Source: an uncultured Candidatus Poseidoniales archaeon
GTDB lineage: Archaea > Thermoplasmatota > Poseidoniia > Poseidoniales > Poseidoniaceae
Length of the DNA stretch: 64,000 nucleotides
NCBI GenBank assembly: GCA_902605365.1
Contig: CACLCM010000002.1
Span: 39,964 to 103,963 of the forward strand
Reading direction: 5' to 3'
In this document: one piece after another, positions 3,911 to 15,149 of the stretch
Position numbering within the stretch: position 1 is the first letter of the stretch
How the letters are laid out: every line of letters starts with the position of its first letter
Notes under the pieces: model-generated
Told to the model about the DNA's origin: nothing
Database searches by the model: none
Seen by the model: only the letters and a program-made list of their open reading frames with translations
Position numbers and translations under genes: made by a program

Positions 3911-3993
3911 GCCGAGATCGCATAGCCTGGTATTGCGGTGGATTCGAAATCCACTGTCCCTTGGACGCGGGAGTTCAAATCCCCCTCTCGGCG
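3911..3993 (+). tRNA. tRNA-Ser (anticodon CGA)
   Basis: The acceptor arm GCCGAGA pairs fully with TCTCGGC, followed by discriminator G. The anticodon stem GTGGA/TCCAC encloses loop TTCGAAA, giving anticodon CGA, which reads UCG. A long variable arm, GTCC-CTT-GGAC, marks it as a class II tRNA, as serine requires. The T arm is GGGAG-TTCAAAT-CCCCC, with one A-C mismatch at the fourth pair (3972 against 3982). No CCA is encoded. The 3' end from 3970 is repeated at 7504-7530, so the gene is an integration target. The mismatch suggests its 3' end came from the incoming element. Confidence 0.93.
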
Positions 3994-3996
3994 CTT
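3970..3996 (+). repeat. attL-like copy: 3' end of tRNA-Ser
   Basis: These 27 bases run from the T stem of tRNA-Ser through the discriminator to three bases past the gene. They match 7504-7530 at 26 of 27 positions. The single difference is C3982 here against T7516 in the far copy. Confidence 0.85.
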
Positions 3997-4060
3997 TCAC
4001 TTATGTTGAAGGTTCACTTAAATCGATACAAAATCACGATTATTCTCAATTTGAATTATT

Positions 4061-4177
4061 TTAATAATGACGCAGAACTCTAATTTGATTACTGATTTGT
4101 TTTAGGCGCCTCATGGCTTTCATTTCGTTCCGCCCAACATGCTTGCCCATTTCCAGCTCACGTTCTAGTCTCTCCAT
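4061..4177 (-). CDS. Possible 38-aa coiled-coil mini-protein
   Basis: This ORF is too short for the supplied track. It reads MERLERELEMGKHVGRNEMK and ends IRVLRHY before TAA at 4061-4063. It is strongly charged and could form a short coiled coil. The frame is open further upstream to a stop just before the end of the 709-aa gene, so a non-ATG start is possible. It would lie 31 bases after that gene in the same direction, in the gap beside the tRNA. No ribosome-binding site is evident and the family is unknown, so it may not be expressed. Confidence 0.3.
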   Translation of the reverse strand: MERLERELEMGKHVGRNEMKAMRRLKQISNQIRVLRHY

Positions 4178-4208
4178 TTCTCTTTGCAGAGAATGAATAG
4201 TTTGTGAT

Positions 4209-6320
4209 TTAGTATTGTCTCCCTCTTAGAGATTTAGAGACTCTTTGAGGCGCTAAATTTGATTGGTGAACTCCAACTCCCAGATTTGATATAATTTTCT
4301 CAGTAGCATCTAATATTCTCTTAACATGGGTTTTTGTCAGTTTAATACCTGAATCCTCATTGTGTACCTCGTCGTTTCGAAGAATCCTAGCTTGCTGTAA
4401 TTTGTCTAACATAGCGCTAGTGAATTTCATTTCATTGGCAATTACATCAATCAATTTCAAAGCAGCACCTTTCCCTTCAGGCATTGGCTCTGTTTGAGTC
4501 TCGCACCACATTTCTTTAGCGTGTGATTCGAATCGAGTAAATGCTGCAGTTAGAGAATCCTCTAGTGAACCTCTTTCTATAGCGCTCTTAACCTTCATAC
4601 TCAATTTATCATTTCCACTGTTTAGGTTTGGATAAATACTGTAATCAAAAAGTGTATTTTTATTTCCTATCTCCTTCTCAACAATTACTTCTTTCTCAAC
4701 AATTACTTCCTTTTCAATAATTTTCCTCTCTACAACAACTTTAGTTTCCACTATTCCGCCTTCCAGATTAGAAATACAAATTTCATCAAATGGAGAGCAA
4801 CTCAATAGTTGATTAAGTTCGTTCAGATTAAGATTAGGTCCTGGTAGATCACTAGCGTTATGTTTCTCTAGTAGCCTATCCAAACTCAAATGCGAGGTTG
4901 GGCTAGATTCAACCATCTCGTAAAGCATAGCCGCCCTTGGACTTGAATAACCAAGGTATGGATCGATTTTCCATCCTATGCTGTTACCCCAGGCTACATT
5001 TTCTCTTGTTAGTGGCAAATTCAATTGAGGGAGTTTTTCATTTACATTTTGGAATGTTCCGAAGGTCATTGGTTGCAAATTCATCTCAACCGCTTTCTTG
5101 TAAGTTGTTGGAGTCCAACCTAAATTTTCCAATTTCTTAACTTCTTTACTAGGTAGGTATGGAGGATCGGTTAAAGTATTGACATTCCCTCGATTGATTG
5201 AATACCCAATGTTTGGAGCAACAAAATTACTGCTCCATGCTGCAGCCTCTGCTCCAGATAAGTGTTCAGGAGGGTGCATACGATGGCTATTAGTGATAAT
5301 AATGTAAAACCAATCCTTTGCCCTATTGTATTCAGCTAAAGTTGAAAATTTTGTTTTCCTTAATTGATTAAATTCATCGATTGAGGTTACTCCTGATGAC
5401 TTATATAATTCAAAATCATTAGGGTTTTCAATACCCAATCTTGCACAAAAATATATGTCCTCATTCTCCTTGATTCCAATACTGTTGTAGTATGATACAA
5501 GTAATTCATTTCCTTCGATTATTGTGGCTAGCTTGTTTAGACATTCATCTACCACTTTTTTGAGGTTTTCTGCCCTGCCAGAATAATGGTAAGAAAGCCA
5601 TTCTGCATGAGAACTATTCGATGATGTGATTAAGTTTAAACCATTTTCACCATTCATTTTGTCCTCCAATTCATTCTCCCATACCGCTTCAAATAATTCA
5701 TAGAAGTGATTGGACAGCATACGGATATTAAATTTAAAATCAGGATTTTTGGTTTTGTATTCAGGTTCTTGCCGATAACCGCCACGGTTATCTCGAATGT
5801 AGTTACCTTGTTCATTGCGAACATTAACTTTTCTCATCCAGCTTGATTTTTGCCATTCGCCCCAACAAAGTTCCACCCAATGATTATGATTAAAATTAAA
5901 CCGATTTTTTGAGTCACCTCCATATTTCTCCCACCATTTAGGATCAGATTTGATTATAGGAGCAATCAAAGTGTATTCTTCAGAATGTTTACCATTAGTA
6001 AATCTGAAATTTTCAATAGATGTTTTATGTATAATTTCACCACGTATTTCAAAAATTTCATTCTTAGTAAGATAAACTGTTTCGCTTTGGCGATAAATTT
6101 CAAAATCATGCCAAGAGAATGAAACTGTAGTTATTTGCGGATTAAAATCCCTAGCTACAATCACTGTGATCTTCGATTCAGGAACTGGAACATCCGAGAG
6201 TTTCTTTAGTTGATAAGCCACAGTAGAGCGCTTCAGGCCTAATTCATCTGCTATTTCTTGGTGAGTTCTGCCTCTTGCTCTCAATTCCATTATCCTCTGC
6301 AACTCGTTGTCGGTGACCAT
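4209..6320 (-). CDS. HTH / coiled-coil / HEPN-like domain protein, island-encoded
   Basis: I do not recognise the whole protein. The N-terminus holds a helix-turn-helix (RIMELRARGRTHQEIADELG, then KRSTVAYQLKKL). A large middle of about 500 residues has no motif I know. A coiled coil near residues 555-585 has repeats such as VIVEKEVIVEKE. The last 120 residues resemble a DUF4145/HEPN-type helical domain with RNDEVH, an R-x4-H motif (R654 and H659 in ORF-track numbering) like the RNase site of HEPN toxins. The track starts at TTG 6338; I prefer ATG 6320. It diverges from the HEAT-repeat gene across a palindromic site. HEPN proteins often act in RNA cleavage and phage defence, so a defence role is possible but inferred. 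Confidence 0.7.
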   Translation of the reverse strand: MVTDNELQRIMELRARGRTHQEIADELGLKRSTVAYQLKKLSDVPVPESKITVIVARDFNPQITTVSFSWHDFEIYRQSETVYLTKNEIFEIRGEIIHKTSIENFRFTNGKHSEEYTLIAPIIKSDPKWWEKYGGDSKNRFNFNHNHWVELCWGEWQKSSWMRKVNVRNEQGNYIRDNRGGYRQEPEYKTKNPDFKFNIRMLSNHFYELFEAVWENELEDKMNGENGLNLITSSNSSHAEWLSYHYSGRAENLKKVVDECLNKLATIIEGNELLVSYYNSIGIKENEDIYFCARLGIENPNDFELYKSSGVTSIDEFNQLRKTKFSTLAEYNRAKDWFYIIITNSHRMHPPEHLSGAEAAAWSSNFVAPNIGYSINRGNVNTLTDPPYLPSKEVKKLENLGWTPTTYKKAVEMNLQPMTFGTFQNVNEKLPQLNLPLTRENVAWGNSIGWKIDPYLGYSSPRAAMLYEMVESSPTSHLSLDRLLEKHNASDLPGPNLNLNELNQLLSCSPFDEICISNLEGGIVETKVVVERKIIEKEVIVEKEVIVEKEIGNKNTLFDYSIYPNLNSGNDKLSMKVKSAIERGSLEDSLTAAFTRFESHAKEMWCETQTEPMPEGKGAALKLIDVIANEMKFTSAMLDKLQQARILRNDEVHNEDSGIKLTKTHVKRILDATEKIISNLGVGVHQSNLAPQRVSKSLRGRQY

Positions 6321-6352
6321 GCTTATCCGAACAGTCAAAACTACATAAATGT

Positions 6353-6383
6353 TTGGAATTATTCCAATTAGTTGGAATTATTC
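6353..6383. promoter_or_regulatory. Palindromic operator candidate between divergent island genes
   Basis: TTGGAATTATTCCAA at 6353-6367 is a perfect 7-base inverted repeat around one T. A second copy, TTGGAATTATTC, starts 19 bases later at 6372. The pair lies about 33 bases upstream of the preferred ATG of the HTH protein and about 75 bases upstream of the HEAT-repeat gene. Two phased sites in a divergent promoter fit autoregulation by the HTH protein, which is an inference. Confidence 0.55.
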
Positions 6384-6458
6384 TCGATTTAGATGGGGCA
6401 AATACAAGCCCTTGTAAGTGTTGGCAAGATTAATTATGAGCGAGCATGAGTAACTGTT

Positions 6459-7451
6459 GTGTGGGATGGATACAACTATTTTGATACCGAAAATTTTCGC
6501 ATTGAAATTGGAAAAATACTGGACCGATTACGTGCAGATACAGCGGACATTAGCAAAGAATTTCCACTAAGAGAACTGAAGAATCAACTCACGGGAGGTT
6601 CTCTATCTGCTCTATCTAGTCACTGGAGATCTCAAGGAATAGTTAGGAGTGGCACTAGGTTGAGAGGCAAAAAATCGACCATGCTTCATGATGAAGGACA
6701 TGTCTTGTGGGAGAAAGAAGAGTGGAGACTAATTCGAAATAAGGAAGAGAATCGATTTCAGGAATTGCTAAAAGATATGCAGAATCTTGCATTAGAACCA
6801 TTAACAAATATTGTTCTTAATGCTGAAGATGACTACCTTTCTGATAAATCATTGAAACTTATTTGTATATTTGAAGGAGGAAGTTCAGTTGACTTATTGA
6901 TAGATTTTTTACAAAATGTAGAAGTTAATCATCATAGAAAAATGTCAGTTGTAGAAGAGATGGTAAAAATAGGAGGCGAAAAATTTGTTGATCCTTTGCT
7001 TCGAGTTTTGGACTTGGAAGAAATTGAAATTCCAGGTACTGGAGAACTTCTAGGACTGAAAATCATACGCGCATTGGGTAGTATCGGAAGTGAGAAGGCA
7101 GTAGAACCATTACTCAATTTGTTTGAAAGAAAGAACCAGACGAATGGATATGGTTCTGTTGCTTCTGCGCTAGGATGTATTGGAGATAAAAGAGCTGTTG
7201 AGCCATTGATTGAGGCCTTATCAGATGAATCTTGTAAATGCAAGGGAGACGTAGTAAAGGCACTTGGTTTACTTAATGACAAAAGAGCTGTAGAACCGCT
7301 TATTGGCGCTTTAGATGATGAAATGTGGTATGTTAGAAGCGTTGCAGTAAAATCACTTACTTCTATTGGAGGTTCGAAAGTGAAAGCTGCTTTAGTTGAC
7401 TATGACTATAGGGATATTAAATATGGAGGAAGTTACAAGCCAAGTTCCTGA
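6459..7451 (+). CDS. HEAT-repeat (PBS-lyase-like) scaffold protein, island-encoded
   Basis: The 330-aa protein has a charged N-terminal region of about 110 residues with no recognised domain, then helical repeats. The clearest units are ALGSIGSEKAVEPLLNLF, ALGCIGDKRAVEPLIEAL and ALGLLNDKRAVEPLIGAL near residues 205-300, typical of PBS-lyase HEAT-like repeats that bind other proteins. No catalytic motif is seen. The start is uncertain: GTG 6459 is the first in-frame start and there is no ATG for more than 70 codons. It diverges from the HTH/HEPN-like gene and is the only other large gene between the tRNA-end repeats, so a partner role is plausible but unproven. Confidence 0.7.
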   Translation: MWDGYNYFDTENFRIEIGKILDRLRADTADISKEFPLRELKNQLTGGSLSALSSHWRSQGIVRSGTRLRGKKSTMLHDEGHVLWEKEEWRLIRNKEENRFQELLKDMQNLALEPLTNIVLNAEDDYLSDKSLKLICIFEGGSSVDLLIDFLQNVEVNHHRKMSVVEEMVKIGGEKFVDPLLRVLDLEEIEIPGTGELLGLKIIRALGSIGSEKAVEPLLNLFERKNQTNGYGSVASALGCIGDKRAVEPLIEALSDESCKCKGDVVKALGLLNDKRAVEPLIGALDDEMWYVRSVAVKSLTSIGGSKVKAALVDYDYRDIKYGGSYKPSS

Positions 7452-7503
7452 TTTTTATCAATGTGGTAGTAATTATTTCTGAGTAAAATAGGGGCCCAAA
7501 AAC

Positions 7504-7530
7504 GGAGTTCAAATCTCCCTCTCGGCGCTT
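7504..7530 (+). repeat. attR-like copy of the tRNA-Ser 3' end
   Basis: This copy matches 3970-3996 except for T7516 in place of C3982. No 5' tRNA half precedes it, so it is not a tRNA gene. With T at this position the T stem would be GGGAG/CTCCC, fully paired with the resident tRNA 5' half. It therefore looks like the original chromosomal 3' end, moved here by integration. Confidence 0.85.
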
Positions 7531-7580
7531 AACAATCGTAGATTGTTGGCTAGGTTTGTCAATCAGAGATTGAACAAACC
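7531..7580. terminator. Double hairpin between convergent genes, beside attR
   Basis: Two stem-loops follow the attR copy directly. The first is AACAATC-GTA-GATTGTT (7531-7547). The second pairs GGTTTGTCAATC with GATTGAACAAACC (7553-7580), 12 pairs with one bulged A. Both share a CAATC/GATTG core. They lie between the convergent HEAT-repeat gene and the 458-aa membrane gene and could end transcription both ways. Another GGCGCTC follows at 7581. Alternatively they are part of the recombination site. Confidence 0.5.
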
Positions 7581-7591
7581 GGCGCTCAAAA

Positions 7592-8968
7592 TCATTCTTC
7601 TTCAATAGTAGAATCATACTCAGACTCTAATTGCTTGACTATCTTTTCATTTAATCCGAAGGTAGATGCAACTGTATCGAGTAACTTTCTCTCCTCTTTA
7701 GTGATAATACGGTCTTCCATCGCCGTCCTATATGCATCCAAGTATGCGGTTTCCTCAGGCGTATGCGTTTCAGGAATGAAGCGATTAGATGCTTTGTCTA
7801 TAATTAACAAAATTGGTTTTCTTACCACAAGCAAGGATACACCGATAAAGACTCCGCCAGCCGCTCCATAACCAATCAAACTCTCCATTAGTTCACTTCC
7901 AACAATGAAGGAAATGACACCTAAACCAGTGAATACTGCCGTTGTGAAGCCTTTTCGTAGGTTATTATCGATCCCAAATACAGTATCTTTCAGGGTAGCG
8001 TGAACGAACATCATTGCTTCAAAGGCAATTGCAGCTGGAGTTATAGTAAGAGAAAATATCCACGCAAAGAATAACATTCGTTCCGTGAAATTGGGGTCAC
8101 CGTATCTCCAAAGAGTTTCATCAATAAACGTCACTTGGCTTCCATGTACTACAGAAATTAATATCAATAGTATAAACCAGAACATCAGTAATACTACCTT
8201 TCCTAAAAATCCAATGTACAGGGACCTTGAAGTGAGACTTTTACTGAAGTCGGGATTATCTCCCTCTTTGTAAGATTTTATTGAAGAACGTATGAACAAT
8301 AATGCAAGTAATGAAACCATAGGAGAACCTAGAGCAATTGCCCATAAACCAGGAGGCTGTGTTGTTACCGTTGCCTCATAACTAGCAGTACAGTCACCAG
8401 TATCCTTGAAATCATCCTCAATACCTTGTCTCCATTCTTCATCCTCACCAAACCAACGATCTGTTGTTGGCTCTTCGCCTTCTTCACAAACTACCCATGT
8501 TGCGTCTGAAACATAGAATGCAGGTACTGTTCTAATCAGTAACCAGATTGTAATTCCCAGAGCGGGAGCAATATACCAGGCATGCTTTTTGAATGAAGGC
8601 TTGTGCATGAAACTGAGTCTGTTCAATCGGTAGTAAATCGGTATACACAGATACATAATTACGGCTGTAATATGGGCTGTGAAGAATACATCGATTGTCC
8701 AATGCCATAGAATATCTTGTAGCCATTCATATCTTCTGATGTAAGGTGTGACTTGTGCAACAATAAATGATGCCTTTATCCCTTCGCACACCAATAATAC
8801 AGACATAAATTTATTTTCAAATCCTTTTGATTTAGCACGCCAAACCAAAGCAGCTAATGCTACACAATAAAACAATATCAGTAGGGAACTGATAGAAATG
8901 ATCATCCTAAAACCAAAAAGATTGTCAGCGCTGAAAGCACCAATATAGTATTCTTGGACGGTTCTCAT
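7592..8968 (-). CDS. Polytopic membrane protein with TerB-like cytosolic tail
   Basis: The 458-aa protein has about seven or eight hydrophobic segments, starting near residues 24-44. An acidic, probably external loop (near residues 168-205) contains two Cys and several Trp. The last 55 residues (AMEDRIITKEERKLLDTVAS and beyond) resemble the helical TerB-like modules that read D-x-I-(S/T)-x-E-E; the 213-aa protein at 42061 has similar modules. It ends TIEEE. No transporter or enzyme family is recognised. It lies just outside the attR copy, so it is probably chromosomal. Confidence 0.7.
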   Translation of the reverse strand: MRTVQEYYIGAFSADNLFGFRMIISISSLLILFYCVALAALVWRAKSKGFENKFMSVLLVCEGIKASFIVAQVTPYIRRYEWLQDILWHWTIDVFFTAHITAVIMYLCIPIYYRLNRLSFMHKPSFKKHAWYIAPALGITIWLLIRTVPAFYVSDATWVVCEEGEEPTTDRWFGEDEEWRQGIEDDFKDTGDCTASYEATVTTQPPGLWAIALGSPMVSLLALLFIRSSIKSYKEGDNPDFSKSLTSRSLYIGFLGKVVLLMFWFILLILISVVHGSQVTFIDETLWRYGDPNFTERMLFFAWIFSLTITPAAIAFEAMMFVHATLKDTVFGIDNNLRKGFTTAVFTGLGVISFIVGSELMESLIGYGAAGGVFIGVSLLVVRKPILLIIDKASNRFIPETHTPEETAYLDAYRTAMEDRIITKEERKLLDTVASTFGLNEKIVKQLESEYDSTIEEE

Positions 8969-9043
8969 ACTTCGTGTTCAAATGATACATTTAATTGGTT
9001 TTTTGGCTACATAAACAATATTTTTGTAGGATTAAGACTACTA

Positions 9044-9922
9044 TTAATCGTTTAATTTGCTCTTTATCAAACCTATAATTTGCATGGTTTGGTTATTGAA
9101 AACTATAGTTGCAAATAGTGATGTAAAGATTAACATCAGCCACCACATAGAGCCTAAACCTGCAGTGTATTCACCACCAAATAGATCGCCGTGGTCGATT
9201 GAAGAGGTTATTATCAGATGAATAAACAAGCTGGAAAGAATTATGATTACTGAAAAACCCCAACCTACAGAGCCGAACCTTTGATATTGTTCTTCTACAA
9301 AACCAGAATTAATGATTCCGCTTCCTCTTAAAATTTCAAGAACTAGCAAAGTAATAATGACAAGTAAAGAGAGGTACAAACAAATCTGCAATATTAGCCC
9401 TGATGTAGACATTTCATTAACTCCAACCAGTTTAGCAGTCTCTTCACCGACCACTTCCTCGAACTCAGAATACTCATATTTCTGAGTTTGAGATTGCCCC
9501 ATAAAAAATGTGTAAGTAGTCGTTACTTCGAAATCGTTCAACCCATAGTCAATACTAGTCGATTGCTTATAACCATCATCAACTTCTTCATGTTCGAGAT
9601 TATACCATGAATAAGAACCTAATGAAGTGAAAATAAGGAATACCATGATCGTTGCCATCCCAAACTTGGCAGCCTTCCAACCATCAATATCGACTGCACC
9701 TAAACCCCCTTTCAACAAGGCAGATAAGTAGGGAGTATCTTCGCTATTTGCTAGTCTGGCTTTTTTGAGATTTCCAGATTTGGATTCAATTTGTTTAGGT
9801 TTTTTATTTGCATATAGGCGCAAAATCAATTCTGACTTTTTACCGCTGGTTGGAAGACCTTTTGATTTGAGCAATTCCTTGAGTTGGGGAACTGTCATAG
9901 ATTGATTAGCGTCTTTAACCAT
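9044..9922 (-). CDS. SAP-domain membrane protein
   Basis: The N-terminus carries a SAP motif (VPQLKELLKSKGLPTSGKKS, then ELILRLY) near residues 10-40; SAP domains usually bind nucleic acid. It is followed by a basic stretch and about four membrane segments (near residues 92-110, 177-200, 222-242 and 255-275), with a probable external loop holding many Glu, Tyr and Thr residues. A SAP domain tied to a membrane anchor is unusual and could tether DNA or RNA to the membrane, which is an inference. A SAP-repeat protein is also found at 28564. The overall function is unknown. Confidence 0.7.
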   Translation of the reverse strand: MVKDANQSMTVPQLKELLKSKGLPTSGKKSELILRLYANKKPKQIESKSGNLKKARLANSEDTPYLSALLKGGLGAVDIDGWKAAKFGMATIMVFLIFTSLGSYSWYNLEHEEVDDGYKQSTSIDYGLNDFEVTTTYTFFMGQSQTQKYEYSEFEEVVGEETAKLVGVNEMSTSGLILQICLYLSLLVIITLLVLEILRGSGIINSGFVEEQYQRFGSVGWGFSVIIILSSLFIHLIITSSIDHGDLFGGEYTAGLGSMWWLMLIFTSLFATIVFNNQTMQIIGLIKSKLND

Positions 9923-9969: not shown

Positions 9970-11769
9970 TTAATTATCATCTGCTCTTGAGATTACATGC
10001 ATTGTGCTACCCTTCTCCAGATTAGCCTTGACATCTATTGCCCAAGCATCTAGTGACACGTTAAGAACCGCAATTTCATCTCCCTGTTTTAGAGTATTGA
10101 ACAGGCTTGGCCAGGCATTATCCCAACCTTCTACTGCAATCCTTCCACTGTTGTCAAGTAGAACAATTCCTTTGCGAGCCCATGGCTTGCCATTCTTGCC
10201 AACGCCTGATTTGTAAGTAGTATATGCAACTCTACCAACTACATTCCACCTAGCTTGGAAGTCGAACAGACCTACATCTCCTTCTTCGGCTTCTGATGCT
10301 TTTTCGATTCTTGCATGCGGGTCTACTTTGAGTTGTAATTCACCTTTCCAATTGGTCGAAGGAACAACTCCAATTAAACGAATACTATCTCCTTTAGCCA
10401 CATCAGCAGGGTAAGTAAGCACTCCTTGACTTTCCTTGACCATTATGCGTACGAAAGCGAACCCTCCATCTTTTTCGATAGTAATATTCGGTGCTTTTTC
10501 CGGTACATTCGTGACACTAAAAACCTCACAAAAAATATTGACACGAGGTTTTAGGTCGGCAAAGGGGGTTAGTTCGTACACCTTGATGTCGCCTGATGGT
10601 TGATGTTGTCCTCCATCCGGTAGGTCATCGTCTCCACTACCATTTGGACAGAGCCCTGCCCAATCACATGTATCGCAACGTAACTCATCCGGGTCGTCAA
10701 TCTTGACACCTCCTTCAGAAAAACCACGTATTGACCTTGGAATTGGCGGACAATCTTCTATTGTCACCTCAGTTCCTTTGATCTCTTGCCATAAGTCGTT
10801 CAATTCAGATTCCAAATTTGTAATTTCTTCGGCAGTAGGTGGCTCAACTGATTTACGCACACCTACTCCTGCATACCAAATCTCTAGTTCATCGGGTATG
10901 ACGCCATCATGAGTAATTGACCACAGCATAGCATAGATACGTAATTGCTCAACATAATTGCCACTACGGTCACCGCCACCCCGGCTAGCTTTCAAATCCA
11001 TAATCCGGATTTTTCCACCATGCCTGTAGACTAGGTCATATTCACCTTGGAACCAATGTTCTGGGTGTATTACATTCAGAGAGAATGGAGGGGCATTGGG
11101 ATCTACGAACCAAGGTCTAGCTATTTCCCAAGCCTCAACCAATGTACATTCACCAGTTCTTGCTAATGGATTTGGACCTTGTTTTTCTCTTCCATCAGGG
11201 GCTGGGATATCCGGCCTTACACCATTACGCCAATCTGTCAATTCTGATTCTGTGACCGAATCCTTGCAAGATTCTACTTCATCCATGTGCATTCGTAGTG
11301 CAGATACGCACATATCTCGATAAGCATCCATTGAGTATTCATGCCAATTACCGCCTTTACGTGCGTTCTTACTCCACTCTTCATGCATTTCATCCCTTAT
11401 GCTTGGCCAATGGGCATCTACCCTGTCTTCACACCATTTCATGAAATCCGATGGTAATTCATCATCGAATAGAGGCAGTAACATATCCGCTCCGTTGGCC
11501 AGAACATCTGATGGAGCAGAATTGAAAACAATGCCCGGTGATTCCATTAGAACTCGGCAAACACATTCTTCAACAGCCCTTCCCAAAAAAAGAGGAGGGG
11601 TCTGCGGGAATTTTAGTCGCATCTTATTTTGATACCACCAAAGTCTAGGACAATCTTCCCAAGTGTTAGCCTGCGAAGCAGAAAGACGATTGAAAGGACC
11701 GATATCATCGGTCTGTGAATCGGCAACCTGCACAGGCATGTCTCTTATCGTGACATCAAGTGTATTCAA
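9970..11769 (-). CDS. RecB/Cas4-like PD-(D/E)xK nuclease with OB-fold tail
   Basis: The N-terminal half is a RecB-family nuclease: LSASQANTWEDCP start, GEYDLVYRHGGKIRIMDLKA (motif D...DxK), and EQLRIY (QxxxY). One Cys in the first motif plus CDTCDWAGLC gives the C...C-x2-C-x5-C set that binds an Fe-S cluster in Cas4, AddB and Dna2. The last 220 residues (from about DIKVYELTPF) look like two OB folds, as in single-strand DNA-binding proteins. The start is a TTG overlapping the stop of the upstream paralogue (TTGA), so coupling is likely. No cas genes are nearby. A DNA repair or end-processing role is inferred. Confidence 0.78.
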   Translation of the reverse strand: MNTLDVTIRDMPVQVADSQTDDIGPFNRLSASQANTWEDCPRLWWYQNKMRLKFPQTPPLFLGRAVEECVCRVLMESPGIVFNSAPSDVLANGADMLLPLFDDELPSDFMKWCEDRVDAHWPSIRDEMHEEWSKNARKGGNWHEYSMDAYRDMCVSALRMHMDEVESCKDSVTESELTDWRNGVRPDIPAPDGREKQGPNPLARTGECTLVEAWEIARPWFVDPNAPPFSLNVIHPEHWFQGEYDLVYRHGGKIRIMDLKASRGGGDRSGNYVEQLRIYAMLWSITHDGVIPDELEIWYAGVGVRKSVEPPTAEEITNLESELNDLWQEIKGTEVTIEDCPPIPRSIRGFSEGGVKIDDPDELRCDTCDWAGLCPNGSGDDDLPDGGQHQPSGDIKVYELTPFADLKPRVNIFCEVFSVTNVPEKAPNITIEKDGGFAFVRIMVKESQGVLTYPADVAKGDSIRLIGVVPSTNWKGELQLKVDPHARIEKASEAEEGDVGLFDFQARWNVVGRVAYTTYKSGVGKNGKPWARKGIVLLDNSGRIAVEGWDNAWPSLFNTLKQGDEIAVLNVSLDAWAIDVKANLEKGSTMHVISRADDN

Positions 11770-13370
11770 GGCTTCGATTTGATTTGCATTCTAGTATTTC
11801 TTGAATCGATTCTGAGTTGAACTAAGCCTTCTCTCCAACCTAATTCTGCAGAAGTTAGTTTTACTATCATTCCAGGTCGTATAGATAGCATTGTTCCATT
11901 TATTGCAGAACCAAATGCGACTACTTCGGCAACACGTTCACCGTCCCATAAGTGATATGACATCATAGACCAAGGCCTTCCATCCGCTCTCTTACCATCC
12001 CTCTTTGAACAGCACAATACAACTCCTTCGACGTTGGCCTTAGTACGAAGCATTCCCATACGAGTTAACTCGGCTTCAGATTTCTCCAAGATTGAACTAT
12101 TCCCATCCAAATAGAGCCTGGGTTGTCTTCTCCAAACCCCCGGTAATGCACCTGTGATGTAGACATAATCTTGTGGAGAATTATGCATTTCAGGATATGA
12201 GCCTGGTTGACTTTCTTCTATTGTCACCATTTTTTCACCCGCCTGAATCATAGCACCTAGTACCGGTTCACCGTAATGATTTGGAAGTGGACCCCATGAA
12301 CCCTGCAATTTTCCTTTTACATTTACGCGAGAAGGAATTGAGGATAAAGGCTCACAGGGAAGTGTAATCTCAGGAGCCTCGTAGGGAATCTCTGCTAAAG
12401 AGCACCAGTGGCAGCCTCCTGCTTTGCCATCACATGGGTTTTCTATTGGAAGAGAATTATCCGTATCCCATGCTTTCATTTCGTCATGGACCGCCCTGTA
12501 ATCTTCTGTGGAAAGGGGAGCGAGATCGACTACTTTTCTCATACCATTTGTAAGATACCAGCCTTCAATGCCGTCACAACTAGAATCATGAGTTTCACCC
12601 CACAACCACGCATAGAAGTTTAATTGAGAGTCCAAACTCTTTGCGAACTTTCCTCCACCATCACCCATCTTGATGTCGATAATGCGTACCCTGCCATCCC
12701 ATCGTAATACTAGGTCGCATTCACCTGCAGCCCATCTATCAGGATGGTACATTCTTTGAGGCTCAGGATTGCGAGGGTCTTTGACCCAAGGCCTAGCTAT
12801 TTCCCAAGCATCTTGCCAAGTTATTTCTTCACTGAATTGGTGTATCTCGTCTTTCCATGAGACCATGCTGTTGGCCTTACTAGGCTGGGTGAAATGGGGA
12901 GGTGAGTCCCAACATGGAGCTGGAATGTCGAACTCAAAGTCTCCGCCTCCCGCCTCATAACAGGATTTCACTTCTTCTAGTTGCAAAGAAATTCCGTTTC
13001 TGAGCATTTCAGACACCAATTCAATATCGAAGTAATCATCAAAGTTGCCATCAGACCAAAGGGCATCATCAAAAGTACTCTTTCCTTTGTCGATTGCACT
13101 TCTGGCATTCTCTTCAACAAGTCCGAATAACCAGCTTTGTAATTCTTCATACGAAGTGACAACTGGTGCTCTATGCATCAATATTGAACAGAAGGCATCT
13201 TCCACTTCAATGCCCATCACTTGGTGAGGGGAAAGTGGCCCTCTCAGGCCGATTCTGTAATTCAAAAACCACTGCTTTTCACAGCGTAAAAATGTCGTTA
13301 AGGACGAGGCTGATAAACGGCCACGCGCCCTACCTATGGATTGAGCTTCTGGAGGAATCTGTGCTGGCAT
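11766..13370 (-). CDS. RecB/Cas4-like PD-(D/E)xK nuclease, paralogue
   Basis: This 534-aa protein repeats the plan of its downstream neighbour: LSASSLTTFLRCEKQWFLNY at the start, GECDLVLRWDGRVRIIDIKM (motif D...DxK), QLNFY (QxxxY), and a C-terminal OB-like region of about 190 residues. The cysteine set differs (C-x6-C-x2-C in CDGKAGGCHWC, without the last spacing seen in the neighbour), so any Fe-S cluster may be altered. The two genes overlap and most likely arose by tandem duplication. They may form a heterodimer with unequal subunits. ABCE1 lies directly upstream with a 9-base gap, so all three may be cotranscribed. Confidence 0.76.
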   Translation of the reverse strand: MPAQIPPEAQSIGRARGRLSASSLTTFLRCEKQWFLNYRIGLRGPLSPHQVMGIEVEDAFCSILMHRAPVVTSYEELQSWLFGLVEENARSAIDKGKSTFDDALWSDGNFDDYFDIELVSEMLRNGISLQLEEVKSCYEAGGGDFEFDIPAPCWDSPPHFTQPSKANSMVSWKDEIHQFSEEITWQDAWEIARPWVKDPRNPEPQRMYHPDRWAAGECDLVLRWDGRVRIIDIKMGDGGGKFAKSLDSQLNFYAWLWGETHDSSCDGIEGWYLTNGMRKVVDLAPLSTEDYRAVHDEMKAWDTDNSLPIENPCDGKAGGCHWCSLAEIPYEAPEITLPCEPLSSIPSRVNVKGKLQGSWGPLPNHYGEPVLGAMIQAGEKMVTIEESQPGSYPEMHNSPQDYVYITGALPGVWRRQPRLYLDGNSSILEKSEAELTRMGMLRTKANVEGVVLCCSKRDGKRADGRPWSMMSYHLWDGERVAEVVAFGSAINGTMLSIRPGMIVKLTSAELGWREGLVQLRIDSRNTRMQIKSKP

Positions 13371-13379
13371 ATTTTAACC

Positions 13380-15149
13380 TCAAGAATCAAATGAATAATA
13401 GTCGCCTTTCTCACGCTGCTCTCTATCTTTACGACTGGAAGATTTGTTTATTCTAGGACGTTTTGAATCGTGATCTCTTCTAAATGTCACATCGACGCCG
13501 CTAAGGAAGCGATTCATTCCTGCTCGTAACTTGAATGGCCCTTCTGCCATACCATGTTTGCCACCCTCTCCCTCGAAGACTAGAAGAGAATCCGACACAA
13601 TATCGATGAAGTATACATCGTGATCTATTACGAATGCAGCTCTTTCATTGGACTCCATAGTTCTTCGAATCGCTTTTGCGGCTTCCATACGTGCATTTGC
13701 ATCAAGATGCGCACTTGGCTCATCAAGAAGATAGAGGTCTGCATCTTTGCCAAGACAGATTGCAATTGCTACTGCTTGGGCTTCTCCACCAGACAGGTTA
13801 TTGACATCCTTAGTAAGTAAATCATCAACTCCTAAAGCGCGAATAACATTGACGTTGTACTCACCACTTCTCCAACTAGGACCAACTTCAGCATCTAACC
13901 AGGTTTGAACATTACAATCCATATCGAGGTCAATATGTTGCGGTTTGTAGGATATTGAAGCATCAGCAGTAACCCAACCTCCGTCATATTCATGCTCCCC
14001 TGCAAGGATTTTGATCATCGTAGTTTTACCGCTTCCATTAGGACCAACTACACCCACAACTTCGGATTGGTGGACCTTTCCGTCACCAGTTTTGAGCTTG
14101 AAATCACCGAGTGACTTTTCCAGCCCCCCCCATTCAACAACTGGATTTCCTATCTCGTTTGAACGGTCTGTATGTTTTTTGAATTTGATAGGTTTGTCTC
14201 TTATTCTGACATTTTGTTCAACCAGGAAACCGTCTAAATACGCATTTATCGCCATTCTAGTTGTGCGAGCAGGTGTGAATATACCGAAAGCACCTTTTTT
14301 GCCATATACTATGTGGATTAAATCCGCTAATACATCGAGAACTGCTAAATCGTGTTCAATGACAATTACACGAGCCGTTTCTGCTAATTCTTGAATAATC
14401 TTTACGATTCGCATTCTCTCATAGATATCAAGGTAAGACGATGGCTCATCGAAGAAGTACACATCTGCGTCTTTGAGTAATGTTGCACAAATTGCAACCC
14501 TCTGTAATTCACCACCAGATAATTGGTCCAAATCCCTCTCAAGAAGATGGCTTAAACCTAGTTTTTCGGCCATTTCATCGAACATTCCTCTTTCATCAAC
14601 TGAAGAAAGTAATTTGCCCACTTTTCCTTTTACTGCTTTGGGAATGTGGTCTACATATTGTGGTTTTAGTGCGACTTTCACATTAGATTCGCTCACCTGG
14701 CTGAGGAAATCTCGCAATTCCCCACGAGGTAGGCTTTCAATCGCATCTTCCCACCAAACATCATCGGCTTCGAAATCTCCAAGGTTAGGAACAATTGAAC
14801 CATTTAGAATGTTAAATGCGGTTGATTTACCCATTCCATTAGGTCCAAGGATACCAACTACTGATTCTTTAGATGGAGTTGGAAGACGAAACAATCGGAA
14901 ACCATTGAGAGAATATCTGTGAATCATATCAGTTTTCAGTTCAGCTGGCAAGTTGATTACAATAACAGCGTCATCTGGACAGTGCTTAGCACGAATGAAG
15001 CATGGAGGGCATGCACTTTCGAGAATACGAAATTTCTCTCCATCGAACTGGATACATTCACCACCGCATGACCCCGCCCATTTTTTGAGATAGTCAAACG
15101 CATCGCTCTTCGGCTTGCATCTATCTTCAATTAGAACAGCAATACGCAT
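13380..15149 (-). CDS. abce1: ABCE1/Rli1 ribosome-recycling ATPase
   Basis: ABCE1 splits the ribosome after termination using two ABC ATPase domains. Both are present: Walker A GPNGMGKST and GPNGSGKTT, signatures LSGGELQRVAI and LSGGEAQAVAI, Walker B FFDEPSSYLD and LLDEPSAHLD. The N-terminal domain normally has eight Cys holding two 4Fe-4S clusters. Here only six Cys remain (11, 28, 32, 47, 50, 57), the ACPPCFIRAKHCP block has Arg where the third Cys should be, and the left-hand spacing is not canonical. The flanking INLP and IHRYSLNGF motifs are intact. The 589-aa length is normal. The identity is secure; loss of at least one cluster is likely. Confidence 0.93.
   Translation of the reverse strand: MRIAVLIEDRCKPKSDAFDYLKKWAGSCGGECIQFDGEKFRILESACPPCFIRAKHCPDDAVIVINLPAELKTDMIHRYSLNGFRLFRLPTPSKESVVGILGPNGMGKSTAFNILNGSIVPNLGDFEADDVWWEDAIESLPRGELRDFLSQVSESNVKVALKPQYVDHIPKAVKGKVGKLLSSVDERGMFDEMAEKLGLSHLLERDLDQLSGGELQRVAICATLLKDADVYFFDEPSSYLDIYERMRIVKIIQELAETARVIVIEHDLAVLDVLADLIHIVYGKKGAFGIFTPARTTRMAINAYLDGFLVEQNVRIRDKPIKFKKHTDRSNEIGNPVVEWGGLEKSLGDFKLKTGDGKVHQSEVVGVVGPNGSGKTTMIKILAGEHEYDGGWVTADASISYKPQHIDLDMDCNVQTWLDAEVGPSWRSGEYNVNVIRALGVDDLLTKDVNNLSGGEAQAVAIAICLGKDADLYLLDEPSAHLDANARMEAAKAIRRTMESNERAAFVIDHDVYFIDIVSDSLLVFEGEGGKHGMAEGPFKLRAGMNRFLSGVDVTFRRDHDSKRPRINKSSSRKDREQREKGDYYSFDS

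Follow-up and report, generated by a model that had tools for sequence, protein, structure and literature searches.

A paralogous pair of RecB/Cas4-type nucleases with predicted tandem OB folds beside ABCE1 in Poseidoniales

EXO5 is an Fe-S RecB-type exonuclease of ssDNA that works with RPA, and it is RPA that sets the direction of EXO5; Dna2 is an Fe-S PD-(D/E)XK nuclease that has an OB fold and a relationship to RPA (PMC8710748). Cas4 provides a further point of reference (background in PMC5704561). The window considered here, which is the whole stretch of 64,000 nucleotides analysed from an uncultured Candidatus Poseidoniales archaeon, contains two neighbouring genes, termed A and B, that an earlier sequence-only reading had taken for an unequal pair of RecB/Cas4-like nucleases with OB-like tails.

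The ABCE1-B-A locus and its two nuclease genes

Gene B (11766-13370, minus strand; 534 aa) is preceded directly upstream, as the sequence-only reading had seen, by the gene for the ribosome-recycling ATPase ABCE1/Rli1 (13380-15149, minus strand; NF009945 750 bits against a cut-off of 469). The ABCE1 stop lies 9 bp from the B start. Gene A (9970-11769, minus strand; a 599 aa ORF) follows B. The overlap of A and B that had been described is a start-codon artefact: the shared 4 bases require a TTG start that the orthologues of A do not conserve. In the orthologue alignment these proteins start at an MPV motif that corresponds to M11 of the A ORF, and the true start of A is probably the ATG at 11739 (codon 11). 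With that start, about 26 bp separate the B stop from the A start.

A and B are genuine genes and, by an alignment over their entire length (24% identity, E=1e-33), full-length paralogues. Their scores with PF12705 PDDEXK_1 (51.4 bits for A and 41 bits for B, curated cut-off 22) and their motifs place them among the RecB-type nucleases of that family; PF12705 lies above its cut-off in 24/24 members of a mixed A/B alignment, and GExD, DxK, and QxxxY are invariant in both paralogues. The nuclease domain of A spans residues 28-375 (10645-11688, minus strand), as judged by the PF12705 match, the invariant columns, and an alignment with Cas4 4r5q, and its catalytic residues are G242-E243-x-D245, D258-x-K260, and Q275-x3-Y279. 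That of B spans residues 14-335 (12366-13331, minus strand), with G216-E217-x-D219, D232-x-K234, and Q249-x3-Y253 invariant in 18/18 B sequences. Purifying selection on A and on B is strong, with dN/dS values of 0.04 and 0.06, respectively (each against a 96%-identical relative).

The two proteins differ in their cysteines, one set being of the full Cas4/AddB type and the other altered, as had been read from the sequence. In A the presumed ligands of an Fe-S cluster, C40 within a CPRLWW motif (11650-11652, minus strand) and C365-x2-C368-x5-C374 (10648-10677, minus strand), are invariant in 32/32 orthologues. The set in the window's B consists of C30 (13281-13283, minus strand) and C313-x6-C320-x2-C323 (12402-12434, minus strand), in which C313 is a relocated cysteine, the CxxC is present, and the canonical last cysteine is lost. 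Most B members retain C30 and the CxxC. The canonical CxxCx5C is found in the B proteins of the second family and of one genus of the first (L072), while most B proteins of the window's family have lost the last cysteine and have a new one upstream of the CxxC; in the genus g5 all of the Fe-S cysteines of B are gone and the catalytic residues are retained. A dead nuclease is ruled out for B by this retention and by the invariance of these residues in 18/18 sequences. (A fifth cysteine, A C168 at 11266-11268 and B C137 at 12960-12962, is invariant in both paralogues; it lies in a helical insert of the nuclease domain, outside the usual set of four.)

The claim of OB-like tails is borne out by structure prediction. 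AlphaFold models of A and B (mean pLDDT 88.9 and 85.7) have the nuclease domain followed by two beta-barrels, and the best PDB matches of Foldseek for both C-terminal parts are the tandem-OB proteins RPA70, HIN-200, POT1, and Teb1, with RPA and HIN-200 domains in the lead and E down to 7e-10; the matches cover a portion of each chain, hence their low TM-scores. Each tail is thus predicted to form two tandem RPA-like OB folds. Models and Foldseek place those of A at residues ~398-495 (10285-10578, minus strand) and ~505-599 (9973-10257, minus strand), the second of which also contains the match of the A profile to archaeal RPA 8aa9 (E=2e-8); those of B, both strongly conserved, lie at residues ~345-435 (12066-12338, minus strand) and ~440-534 (11769-12053, minus strand). 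A separate multi-OB RPA is encoded ~21 kb away in the same genome (34180-35895, minus strand), which rules out that A or B is the RPA of the cell.

In the 18 genomes that hold both genes, near-invariant columns of A number 40/130 in the nuclease core versus 3/193 in the OB folds, and those of B 31/118 and 34/186, respectively; the Fe-S region of B drops to 21% identity. A thus conserves its nuclease core and Fe-S region and not the sequence of its OB folds, while B conserves its nuclease core and both OB folds and not its Fe-S region. This complementary pattern suggests a division of labour within a two-component nuclease that would process ssDNA ends or flaps.

The surroundings are mixed, with genes for translation, PAC2, and pdxT, and say little about the function of A and B. 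Among the identified flanking ORFs of 32 Poseidoniales loci there is no cas gene, in agreement with the sequence-only reading. In the window, several extra genes (for an HTH protein, a HEAT-repeat protein, and membrane proteins) and a tRNA-Ser lie at 3911-9922, between A and the usual PAC2 and aIF2-alpha genes; these are missing from most relatives. The protein encoded at 9044-9922 (minus strand), downstream of A, begins with a SAP (DNA-binding) domain and has hydrophobic stretches that probably span the membrane.

Distribution and history of A and B

In whole-genome searches A is present in nearly all Poseidoniales. The ABCE1-B-A array is conserved in both families: A and B are adjacent and in the same order in 14 genera, ten of the window's family and four of the second (g15, g17, g19, and g21). 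In this second family, seven other genera (g12, g13, g14, g16, g18, g20, and g22) have A without B; here A mostly lies behind pdxT and a radical-SAM gene, and is usually followed by PAC2 and aIF2-alpha, as it is elsewhere. The tree unites these A-only genera in a single clade (100/99), consistent with B having been lost once. The question whether the two genes always occur together, which the sequence-only reading had left to a search, is therefore answered in the negative, since this clade rules out obligate pairing. B alone was not found in the searched genomes; it is always beside an exonuclease gene, either A or, in one genus, a DEDDh exonuclease.

This genus is g5, whose genomes G030, G307, and G310 have the order ABCE1, B, and then the DEDDh exonuclease (PF00929), with A absent. 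In 3/3 g5 genomes that hold the locus, the DEDDh gene (L070:11618-12457, L282:8556-9395, and L283:3943-4779) starts 14-15 bp after B, exactly at the place of A, to which its product is unrelated. Remoter DEDDh homologues occur at other places in most genomes of the order, but the copy after B is specific to g5, and the replacement was probably a single event in one genus. With A exchanged for DEDDh and the Fe-S cysteines of B lost, g5 offers a natural experiment on the roles of the Fe-S cluster and of the partner.

Profile matches were obtained in 194/245 sampled Thermoplasmatota genomes. In the 18 non-Poseidoniales genomes from this sample that were inspected, the matches cover almost only the OB/RPA-like positions, the exception being one match of 39 columns (E=0.008), and the nuclease-OB-OB architecture was not found. 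The best 80 of 298 relatives in a genome collection carry, without exception, the titles Poseidoniales/Poseidoniaceae, Poseidonia, or unclassified Euryarchaeota; beyond these 80, the pair may occur rarely outside the order. An origin in viruses, plasmids, or phages was rejected, since no relatives were found in IMG/VR (by a patterned scan), PLSDB, or INPHARED. In the tree, whose root was placed between A and B by assumption, A and B each form one clade (100/100) that contains both families, which argues that the duplication predates the family split and that the pair, in an ABCE1-B-A array, is ancestral in Poseidoniales. (Metagenome genomes are incomplete, which limits claims of absence; in G098, G308, and G309, where A and B were not found, ABCE1 is missing too, so that the locus probably falls in an assembly gap and a loss is not concluded.)

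The neighbouring ABCE1 has a history of its own. Residues 1-71 of the protein encoded in the window form a non-canonical Fe-S domain, RCKPxSxAFxYL...CGxECIQ...ESACPPCxIRAKxCP. Of 96 Poseidoniales ABCE1 proteins, 72 have the canonical domain (with a CIGCGIC motif) and 24 have this alternative, conserved form, which is homologous to the canonical one (E 5e-6 to 3bk7) but has lost several of the cysteines found there. A quick tree built from the ATPase part requires at least 8 switches between the two forms, and both can be present within one genus; from these switches the N-terminal Fe-S domain seems to have been exchanged repeatedly across Poseidoniales, independently of the rest of ABCE1. This domain has been described as essential (PMC7196836), and its exchange may merit separate study.

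Proposed role and rival readings

With moderate confidence, we favour the reading that A and B constitute a nuclease family, restricted within the searched phylum to Poseidoniales, whose probable task during replication or repair is to trim ssDNA at ends, gaps, or flaps. By the tree, one gene was duplicated before the family split, each copy having a RecB/Cas4-type (PF12705) domain joined to a tandem RPA-like OB module. The substrate, polarity, and complex formation that we infer are as follows. A, having kept the four-cysteine clamp of a presumed Fe-S cluster, is most likely the main ssDNA exonuclease or flap nuclease; its OB pair would hold ssDNA, which would reach the active site by threading past an entry that the Fe-S lip shapes, by analogy with the way in which RPA directs EXO5. 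B, with its catalytic residues kept, constraint in its OB tails, and Fe-S cysteines that appear dispensable, is probably a subunit that grips the substrate or binds a partner, and it would act together with the exonuclease of the next gene downstream, be it A or DEDDh. The occurrence of A alone in seven genera indicates that B is not needed for the basic function of A; B may also serve some other purpose and share no more than the operon with A.

This trimming would be separate from the AddAB-like machine. Relatives encode the latter at another locus as a two-gene pair, consisting of a ~1200 aa PF12705 protein and a ~1650 aa UvrD-PF12705 protein (1241 aa and 1646 aa at L220:1499-10161, with equivalents in L221-L225). 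The absence of an addA/recB helicase noted by the sequence-only reading thus stands for the window and not for the order; the AddAB-like helicase was not seen in the window genome itself, which is ~60% complete. NurA (PF09376), of HerA-NurA end resection, went undetected in the 18 genomes sampled from Poseidoniales, which are widespread archaea of the surface ocean; it is present in a genome of the same class and in 7/14 control genomes.

A more specific version of the favoured reading is offered tentatively: a self-contained two-component nuclease in which A is the Fe-S catalytic subunit and B is an OB loading platform that can also accept the entirely different DEDDh exonuclease. Such a machine for resection or flap trimming would be the first of its kind described in archaea. 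The suggestion of an end-processing complex in which A and B are obligate, heteromeric partners is similarly doubtful: the adjacency and fixed order of the genes in 14 genera, the complementary conservation, and the constant presence of an exonuclease gene beside B speak for it, but a well-supported clade within the second family has A without B, and in g5 B sits with a non-homologous exonuclease. The new end-processing pair of the sequence-only reading thus survives in part, in that two unequal nucleases with OB folds are consistent with end processing, and fails with respect to constant pairing.

It is unlikely that A and B are instead the nuclease partners of the AddAB-like helicase, or of another helicase. 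Fusions of PF12705 nucleases with helicases of the UvrD type are common (PMC5704561), and Poseidoniales have such a helicase in the AddAB-like pair; however, both AddAB-like subunits already have a PF12705 nuclease of their own, and their genes are unlinked from A and B. A defence or anti-mobile-element pair of the solo-Cas4 or DruK kind, in place of housekeeping repair, is a distinctly improbable reading. Weak matches to DruK and Cas4 models and the proposal that solo-Cas4 acts in defence or repair (PMC5704561) speak for it. Vertical inheritance, the occurrence of A almost throughout the order, a stable place among translation genes, the very strong purifying selection on both genes, and the lack of relatives among the viral contigs (patterned scan), plasmids, and phages searched speak against it. 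Finally, the conserved ABCE1-B-A array and the nearby aIF2-alpha raise the thought of RNA processing or of translation quality control with ABCE1, which is very unlikely given that, to our knowledge, characterised RecB/Cas4-type nucleases act on DNA, that the OB folds here are RPA-like, and that, in genera with A and no B, the A gene is not linked to ABCE1. (The wide clustering of archaeal replication and translation genes, PMC2643942, speaks for such a role.)

Comparison with known nucleases

A and B are none of Cas4, Dna2, Exo5, or AddB: the marks of these proteins are missing, in relatives a separate AddAB-like pair lies elsewhere, and NurA was not detected in the sampled genomes. By fold the nuclease domain matches phage RecB/Cas4-like exonucleases, and A shares with Cas4 the RecB-type PD-(D/E)XK core and the four cysteines C...CxxCx5C, which in B are complete only in some lineages. 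However, of the models for Cas4 (COG1468) TIGR00372 gives 19.5 bits against a cut-off of 65 and PF01930 does not match; the motif I His of Cas4 is replaced by a Glu that is invariant in both A and B (G63-x3-E67 in A; GRAVEE versus GRILHE of 4r5q); and A and B have a long helical insert and two C-terminal OB folds, without cas association. AddB, AdnAB, and RecBCD likewise combine a nuclease of the PF12705 type with a set of Fe-S cysteines, but A and B are without a helicase or helicase-like part and their chains end in OB folds. Dna2 differs in that A and B have no SF1 helicase domain in the chain and have OB folds that are C-terminal and in tandem. The sequence-only reading is supported in that the pair does not belong to a known AddAB locus. 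EXO5 (DEM1) is a single nuclease domain, and the Exo5 family model in Pfam does not match A or B, which carry their RPA-like OB folds covalently; archaeal RPA can be aligned to the OB folds of A, here joined to a nuclease. Such a built-in RPA-like module would amount to a covalent answer where eukaryotes combine EXO5 or Dna2 with a separate RPA.
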